Source: Limisphaerales bacterium
Lineage (GTDB): Bacteria; Verrucomicrobiota; Verrucomicrobiia; Limisphaerales; SXTU01
Direction of reading: 5' to 3'
NCBI GenBank assembly: GCA_009773355.1
Contig: WRPG01000047.1
Coordinates: 1 to 42,821, forward strand
DNA: 42,821 bases
The translations under genes and the position numbers were made by a program. This document shows, one piece after another, positions 25,104 to 33,406 of the stretch. Position 1 is the first letter of the stretch. Each line of letters starts with the position of its first letter. The notes beneath the pieces were generated by a model. The model searched no databases. It saw only the letters and a program-made list of their open reading frames with translations, and had not been told where the DNA came from.

Positions 25104-25447
25104 ATGAACGCCAACTCTCCCAATGAGCATGATCCGGCCTTCCGCGCGACGTTGCGGGAATGGACCGTGACCGAACCGCGCCGCCGCGTTTCCAGGAGCA
25201 AGTCTGGAAGCGGATCGAAAGCGCCGAGGCCGTGCATGTCAACAGGGGTTCGCGCTGGTCGCTCCTGACCGATTGGATCAACGCGGTGCTGCCGCGCCCC
25301 GCCTTTGCGCTGGCTTGCGCGATGGTCCTGCTGCTCGTCGGCGGGGCGGCGGGCTGGGCGCAGGCCCGTCACGAGGCCGGGCATGTGGACGATGAGTTGG
25401 AAGCCCGCTACCTGCGCGTGGTGGACCCGTATCAACCAGCCGACTAA
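25104..25447 (+). pseudogene. CnrY-like one-TM anti-sigma protein, frameshifted as sequenced
   Basis: From ATG 25104 the frame gives a soluble N-terminus (MNANSPNEHDPAF, LREWTVTEP). Near 25179 the coding sense moves to another frame, which continues PPRFQEQVWKRIESAEA, a membrane helix (FALACAMVLLLVGGAAGW) and a short tail to 25447. Putting back one base in the 'ccg cg ccg' stretch would restore E-P-x-P-P-R-F, as expected for the family. This suggests a -1 error or mutation. The restored protein is about 115 residues with a cytoplasmic N-terminus, one TM and a short outer tail, like CnrY of Cupriavidus, which holds its ECF sigma at the membrane. It is followed by the sensor gene after four bases. 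If translated as is, it would be truncated. Confidence 0.6.
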
Positions 25448-25451
25448 GGCC

Positions 25452-32500: not shown

Positions 32501-33406
32501 CGCTACCCGATTCGCGTCCGTTACCTGCGCGAGTTCCGCGAGGACGTGCCCGAGCTGGAGAAGATTCTCCTGCCCACCAGCACCGGCGCGCAGGTGCCGC
32601 TCGCGCAGGTCGTCACCATCAAGAGCGTCCTTGGTCCGCAGGAAATCAAAGGCGAGCGCGGCCTGCTCGTCGGCTACGTGACCATGAACACCCGCGACCG
32701 CGACGAGGTGAGCGTGGTCGAGGACGCTGAGCGTGCGCTGCAAACCGCGCTCAAGGACGGCAGCCTGAAACTGCCCGCCGGCTACTACTGGGAATGGAGC
32801 GGCCAGTTCGAGAACCAGGTGCGCGCCACCGCCCGGATGCAGATCCTCGTGCCCGTCTGCCTGCTCATCATGTTCGTGATGCTCTACCTCGGCTTCCAGC
32901 GCTGGTGGATCGCGCCGATCATTTACTTCGGCGTGCTCGTCTCGGCGGCGGGCGGGTTCATCATGCTCGCGCTGTGGGGTGCAAATTTGTCGGTGGCCGT
33001 TTGGGTCGGATTTCTCGTCCTCTTCGGCGTGGTGGACGACGATGGCGTCGTCATCGCCACCTACCTCGAAGGCGTCTTCAAGGACCGCGAGTTCAAGTCC
33101 GTCACGGAGATTCGCGACGCGACCATCGAGGCGGGCTTGCGGCGCATCCGCCCTTGTTTGATGACCATTGCCACCACGGTCTTCGGCCTCCTGCCCATCT
33201 TCTGGGCCACCGGCCGCGGCGCGGACGTGATGAAACCGATGGCGATCCCGTCCGTCGGTGGCATGGCCGTCAGCCTCATCACCCTGTTCATCGTGCCGTG
33301 CTTGTTCTGCGCGGTGGAGGAGTGGAAGTGGCGGCGCGCGCAACGGTTGCTGGCGTCCGTTCCGAACCTTTCAGCCTCCGCCCCGGATGCCGGCGCGGCT
33401 CGGTGA
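29591..33406 (+). CDS. Heavy-metal RND pump, CusA/CzcA-like (HME family)
   Basis: 1271 residues; CusA is normally about 1040. Matches include '[34 protein letters not shown]' after TM1, '[20 protein letters not shown]' in TM4 (proton relay acids) and '[17 protein letters not shown]' near the end. The extra length lies after TM6. Two added hydrophobic segments ([18 protein letters not shown] and [16 protein letters not shown]) appear. After TM7 there is a long Ala/Glu/Arg/Pro-rich insert at about residues 634-683 from GC-rich palindromic DNA, and then a charged loop. It exports metal ions from periplasm or cytoplasm using protons. Adaptor modules suggest copper or silver. It is the last gene of the cluster, then convergent with the TlpA-like gene 82 bases on. 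Confidence 0.9.
   Translation: [1271 protein letters not shown]
31510..31630. repeat. GC-rich palindromic stretch in-frame inside the RND pump gene
   Basis: Contains gcgaccggtccccggtcgc and gcgggcggggaccgcccgcg, both compact palindromes. The stretch encodes the disordered Ala/Arg/Ser/Pro linker between TM7 and the following periplasmic domain. It looks like a foreign low-complexity insertion, though simple expansion is possible. Confidence 0.5.

Follow-up and report, generated by a model that had tools for sequence, protein, structure and literature searches.

A Putative Cnr-Like Copper/Silver Switch, Probably Relocated ahead of a CusCBA-Type Pump Operon, in a Limisphaerales Genome

Results

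Organization of the Locus

The window, a stretch of 42,821 nucleotides (contig WRPG01000047.1) from a Limisphaerales genome of 6.16 Mb in 162 contigs, was compared with related loci from Verrucomicrobia subdivision 3, Pedosphaera and Limisphaerales records. Pfam and TIGR family matches showed six genes on the + strand in the order Y-X-H-C-B-A; the order and the six gene families were as given in a preliminary description of this DNA, which had also guessed the phylum, Verrucomicrobia, correctly. Y (25104–25447) codes for a putative one-transmembrane (TM) anti-sigma factor and is frameshifted, the copy in the same-genus locus L039 being intact with 114 amino acid residues. X (25452–25928) is intact and codes for a periplasmic sensor of predicted CnrX fold with an N-terminal TM helix (PF13801 Metal_resist, E 8e-9), to which NCBIfam gave no name. 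H (25925–26525), coding for an ECF sigma factor, is frameshifted between regions 2 and 4 and gave two partial sigma matches (region 2 against Sigma70_r2, E 4e-17); its L039 copy is also intact. The remaining genes are C (26685–28073), for an outer-membrane factor (PF02321 OEP) with an ortholog in the same-genus locus L110; B (28070–29587), for a CusB-type adaptor (HlyD_D23 and HMBD matches); and A (29591–33406), for a CusA-type HME-RND pump (ACR_tran; TIGR00914 CusA/CzcA).

The genes had been described as following each other with short gaps or overlaps, and X-H and C-B do overlap by a few bases, with a gap of 3 bases between B and A, but H and C are about 160 bases apart. The H-C interval showed no terminator-like site on the + strand, and no sigma-70 consensus promoter was found. 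A further gene upstream, pre (24665–24994, + strand, likely ATG at 24710), and a promoter site at 24628–24662 had been missed; both are part of the pre-Y-X-H unit, pre being the first gene past the promoter. It codes for a small exported protein (clusters c10, c17 and c22) without any Pfam family match, is conserved ahead of Y in many loci, and shows LLSPRAK-type motifs (e.g., L091:6649–6990).

Frameshifts in Y and H

Y and H had been presented as single genes, and neither is one open frame. In comparison with L039, one base is lost from Y inside a CTG codon near 25179, and one base is gained in H near 26327, between sigma regions 2 and 4. The Y frame is broken after 25 codons: the reading from ATG 25104 ends at a stop near 25268, giving a short product without membrane helix, and the membrane half lies in another frame up to 25447. 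In H, region 2 is in the frame of 25925 and region 4 is off that frame, in the +1 frame up to 26525. The two halves of H were in frame in 57/57 other copies, and H was the sole sigma factor of the window genome seen as two adjacent partial matches in different frames. The 6.2 Mb of the genome contain 12 RND pumps of all kinds, whose frames showed no internal stop; with no other split sigma pair and with these clean frames, the assembly does not appear to be generally indel-rich. Programmed frameshifting in Y and H was considered and ruled out, the other H copies being in frame and the two sites unrelated.

The dN/dS values were 0.17 for X, 0.28 for the C-terminal part of Y, 0.11 for the N-terminal part of H and 0.14–0.19 for A, B and C, and 18 of the 35 differences between the C-terminal part of H and its L039 counterpart fell at third codon positions. 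Since codon constraint on the remaining parts is normal, the frameshifts, if real, should be recent. As both Y and H are affected, the switch would probably be inactive in this genome unless the assembly is in error; it is, in short, probably broken or mis-assembled.

Pump and Adaptor

Pump A scored 714 bits against CusA and 490 bits against ZneA, and its M753, M803 and M878 aligned with M573, M623 and M672 of CusA, i.e., the methionine triad is kept; of the 26 neighbouring pumps, 25 or 26 have it too. The best match of adaptor B was CusB, to which it is closer than to ZneB. The two CxMHP...CxxCxM modules that had been pointed out in the adaptor were confirmed as two HMBD domains (CSMHPQVRLPKAGKCPICSM, residue 48; CPMHPLVLQPPPGKCKLCGM, residue 348). 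Inside the pump gene, positions 31497–31624 fall in a part that the same-genus pump lacks (1271 residues in the window pump versus 1202); they resemble sequence elsewhere in the window genome and in L112, and look like an in-frame repeat insertion.

The Sensor X, the Sigma Factor H and the Anti-Sigma Candidate Y

The structure model of X (pLDDT 91.8) had CnrX as its best structural match (Foldseek E 3.7e-4, TM 0.74 by target length). Superposition on CnrX gave a VIA Z of 10.3 with rmsd 2.8 over 104 residues, a score which alone is weak for a helical bundle. A profile of the X family found NccX (E 4.6e-4) and CnrX (E 0.008), with one coiled-coil protein scoring equally well. The CnrX fold is therefore claimed on two grounds taken jointly: CnrX entries head the Foldseek result as a block, and the profile finds a match.

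Residues H62, C69, C73, C111, M115, H118 and M126 were conserved at 95–100% across the X family and at no less than 90% in a second set. Pairs 73/111, 69/115 and 62/118–122 would face each other on a long helix hairpin. In a profile alignment with NccX, His118 and Met122 of the window protein would correspond to CnrX His119 and Met123. Met123 is the signalling residue of CnrX (PMC7689651), and the equivalent position is Val in 93% of X relatives; the Met123 ligand is thus not conserved. Judging from these conserved Cys, Met and His residues, X most likely binds a soft metal, which would be Cu(I) or Ag(I).

Searched against solved structures, H matched SigW with 95 bits and CnrH, its seventh-best match, with 64 bits. 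In relatives Y has 110–114 amino acid residues and one hydrophobic stretch, with the consensus LPPRFQExVWRRI, TM, RYVxxVDPY. A search of the PDB with one Y sequence, up to E 10, gave no match to any solved protein, CnrY included; sequence similarity between the published classes of anti-sigma factors is very low (PMC7406223). The label "Cnr-type" in the preliminary description suits the architecture and the sensor fold only; H scores closer to SigW/RpoE-like factors than to CnrH, and Y is without detectable similarity to CnrY.

The Y-X-H Module in Related Genomes

X was found in 59/146 relatives and, by profile search, in 61/387 genomes drawn over the phylum, accompanied by Y and H in nearly all loci, with the Y-X-H order conserved. 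Of 58 loci, 27 had a CusA-type pump near X within the stretch fetched; it lay downstream on the same strand in 13, upstream and divergent in 11 and otherwise in 3. The other 31 had none in the stretch covered, many of these contigs being short. By comparison, the window genome has 12 RND pumps of all kinds in its 6.2 Mb. CopA-like P-type ATPases that share the CxMHP modules are encoded at several X loci. No second Y-X-H copy was found in the window genome. In L044, L046 and L052, H does not directly follow X and is instead found past the CBA operon, some 8 kb downstream. Cluster c6 (24 loci) is made up of small exported proteins bearing a CCKSC-type (TRASH/YHS-like) motif, which also occur in tandem at L039:11473–12462. 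Their genes, which often have an H-type promoter, adjoin Y-X-H or CBA, and the proteins are candidate copper chaperones.

An ECF-Type Promoter Motif

The motif TGAGGGATT-N12-GCGTATT is a strongly conserved ECF-type promoter ahead of Y-X-H and is also found ahead of divergent pump operons. Inspection of upstream regions suggested the pattern GAGGG-N15-[GC]CGTA, which was searched with spacers of 13–17. The strict pattern occurred upstream of Y in 27/55 loci, against a mean of 0.26 and a maximum of 1 in 50 shuffles. A weight matrix built from these sites gave a single site above 8 in the window, at 24628–24662 upstream of pre (+ strand, −35 GAGGGAT at 24632, −10 GCGTA at 24652, score 28.4), and the pattern had its sole match in the window genome at this place. 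Among 38 loci outside the matrix training, 15 had a score of 18 or higher upstream of X, compared with 1/386 background stretches; this cut-off was picked with the training scores already known. Of the divergent c6/CBA operons, 8/15 also had a site. Because loci of one phylum share descent, conservation of the motif is not fully independent evidence.

The preliminary description had suggested a search for ECF-type promoters upstream of 25104 and 26685. A site lies ahead of 25104, upstream of pre and Y, but the weight matrix scan of the window gave no second H-type promoter ahead of C. Lacking an H-type promoter of its own, the pump operon CBA would be reachable by H only through read-through from 24628.

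Probable Relocation of pre-Y-X-H

In a DNA comparison, positions 20878–24339, a gene which we take to be DUF1549/1553-like, and 26597–33346 (CBA) formed one contiguous stretch of L110, in which the pump genes stand directly behind the DUF1549/1553-like gene with no Y-X-H between. The intervening part of the window, 24646–26503 (pre-Y-X-H), matched L039, another contig of the same-genus genome, with 85.5% identical DNA. The order aspartyl protease-pre-Y-X-H is shared by L039 and many further loci, and because of this the window arrangement is most simply understood as the derived one. The block at about 24646–26503 is thus, on this sequence comparison, probably a recently moved cassette. At its left edge lies a dispersed, partly palindromic repeat (24349–24456, no strand assigned), present at about 40 places in the genome on both strands, mostly 73–86% identical over about 100 bases. 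The aspartyl protease (c8) usual upstream of pre-Y-X-H was not found in the window genome, an empty answer that is weak.

CBA orthologs without adjoining Y-X-H also occur in L112 and L113, in whose genomes the X search found no match. This pump subtype thus has orthologous loci (L110, L112 and L113) from which the sensor and sigma genes are missing, an observation which the preliminary description had named as counting against its proposal and which does not extend to the wider association. In L039, the genes behind Y-X-H are a cytochrome-like gene, one for a multicopper oxidase whose TIGR01480 match (E 1.6e-120) stays below the curated cut-off of the family, and those for TRASH/YHS-like proteins; of this oxidase the window genome has a weaker relative only, of 479 residues.

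Discussion

Altogether, we consider it fairly probable that Y-X-H is a Cnr-like envelope switch sensing Cu(I)/Ag(I), which in the window was moved ahead of an existing CusCBA operon and is probably inactive there. The reading draws on module conservation, the promoter motif, the predicted fold, the methionine triad, the same-genus context and the frameshifts, from which we infer the identity of the metal, the directions of signalling and of the move, the read-through and the inactivity. X would bind Cu(I)/Ag(I) in the periplasm via its conserved Cys, Met and His residues; metal-bound X would loosen the one-TM anti-sigma factor Y, and the freed ECF sigma factor H would start transcription at the motif ahead of pre-Y-X-H. 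In many relatives H would also act on promoters ahead of CusCBA-type pumps and of small proteins of TRASH-like kind. In the window, pre-Y-X-H would have been moved to the site directly upstream of the CusCBA operon already present.

Other readings were weighed against this one. One is that X-Y-H responds, as CnrYXH does, to a divalent metal such as Ni, Co or Zn, the copper pump alongside being incidental; this is in keeping with the CnrX fold and with His118 and Met122 at the presumed equivalents of CnrX His119 and Met123. We regard it as quite improbable, given that Met122 is replaced by Val in most relatives, that the Cys/Met/His set is nearly invariant, and that the neighbours are CusA-type pumps with a conserved methionine triad, multicopper oxidase and CopA-like ATPases. 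The window pump might instead be under other control, housekeeping or two-component, the cassette having landed beside it by chance; orthologous CBA operons without Y-X-H and without an H-type site (L110, L112 and L113), and relocation beside a dispersed repeat, would fit. Against this, the pairing of Y-X-H and CBA is repeated elsewhere with different CBA subtypes, and because of this recurrence chance pairing is hard to accept; we hold this reading of the window pump to be rather unlikely.

A further possibility, to which we give some weight without favouring it, is that the frameshifts arose by error in sequencing or assembly, in which case a working Y-X-H-CBA operon would be driven entirely from the 24628 promoter. 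Two observations speak for it: the codon-level constraint on X, the C-terminal part of Y and the N-terminal part of H, by which any loss would be either recent or an artefact, and the lack of a terminator-like site from H to C on the + strand. On the other side stand the absence of signs of an indel-rich assembly, the improbability of two error events inside about 1.2 kb, and the position of both frameshifts outside long homopolymer runs. Under the reading preferred here, of a moved and probably inactive copper/silver switch, Y-X-H-C-B-A of the window is on sequence grounds probably a pairing of recent date in which Y and H are frameshifted. The window genome for this reason illustrates the circuit poorly, although the family illustrates it well. 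Cnr-type control of a Cus-type pump, as first proposed, is supported as a recurrent Y-X-H/CusA pairing across the order, with the CnrX fold and a common promoter motif on both arms; at the window locus itself the proposal fares less well, the pairing not being common to the same-genus relative, the same pump occurring without Y-X-H, and Y and H being frameshifted.

The textbook sigma-factor switches in which a separate protein senses the metal in the periplasm are CnrYXH and the closely related NccYXH. The chances seem about even that Verrucomicrobiota hold a phylum-wide class of Cu(I)/Ag(I) Cnr-like ECF switches, with a new Cys/Met/His site on the CnrX fold, their own promoter consensus and a mobile cassette passing between copper-resistance operons (oxidase, ATPase, CusCBA). 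No published CnrX-type copper module in Verrucomicrobia was found in the open-licence literature. A widespread soft-metal version would show one fold retuned from Ni/Co to Cu/Ag, the promoter motif would help in reading copper regulons in uncultured Verrucomicrobiota, and the window would be a natural case of a control cassette moved ahead of a pump.

Comparison with Known Systems

The locus shares with cnrYXHCBA(T) of Cupriavidus metallidurans (nickel/cobalt) the Y-X-H-C-B-A order, the small one-TM Y, the TM-anchored sensor of CnrX fold, the ECF sigma factor and the HME-RND pump. CnrH-dependent promoters precede cnrY and cnrC (PMC9045368), and in many relatives of the window locus the motif likewise stands ahead of both arms. 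It differs from cnr in the ligand set of the Verrucomicrobiota sensor, the Cus-type pump and adaptor, the lack of a site before C in the window, an H that scores higher against SigW than against CnrH and a Y without detectable CnrY similarity.

CusCBA of Escherichia coli (copper/silver) is controlled by the CusRS two-component system. Its CusA and CusB are the best matches of the window pump, methionine triad included, and adaptor, whereas the window pump stands beside an ECF module and has a two-HMBD adaptor and a long linker insertion (for CusS of E. coli, see PMC10100754). Two further ECF sigma factors linked to copper are CorE (Myxococcus xanthus) and SigAb (Acinetobacter baumannii). According to the available part of one source, SigAb has a small anti-sigma factor whose predicted contact resembles CnrY-CnrH, and CorE-like factors are said to work without an anti-sigma factor (PMC12153292). 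In contrast to the Verrucomicrobiota module with its sensor X, that part of the source describes no CnrX-type sensor gene for either.
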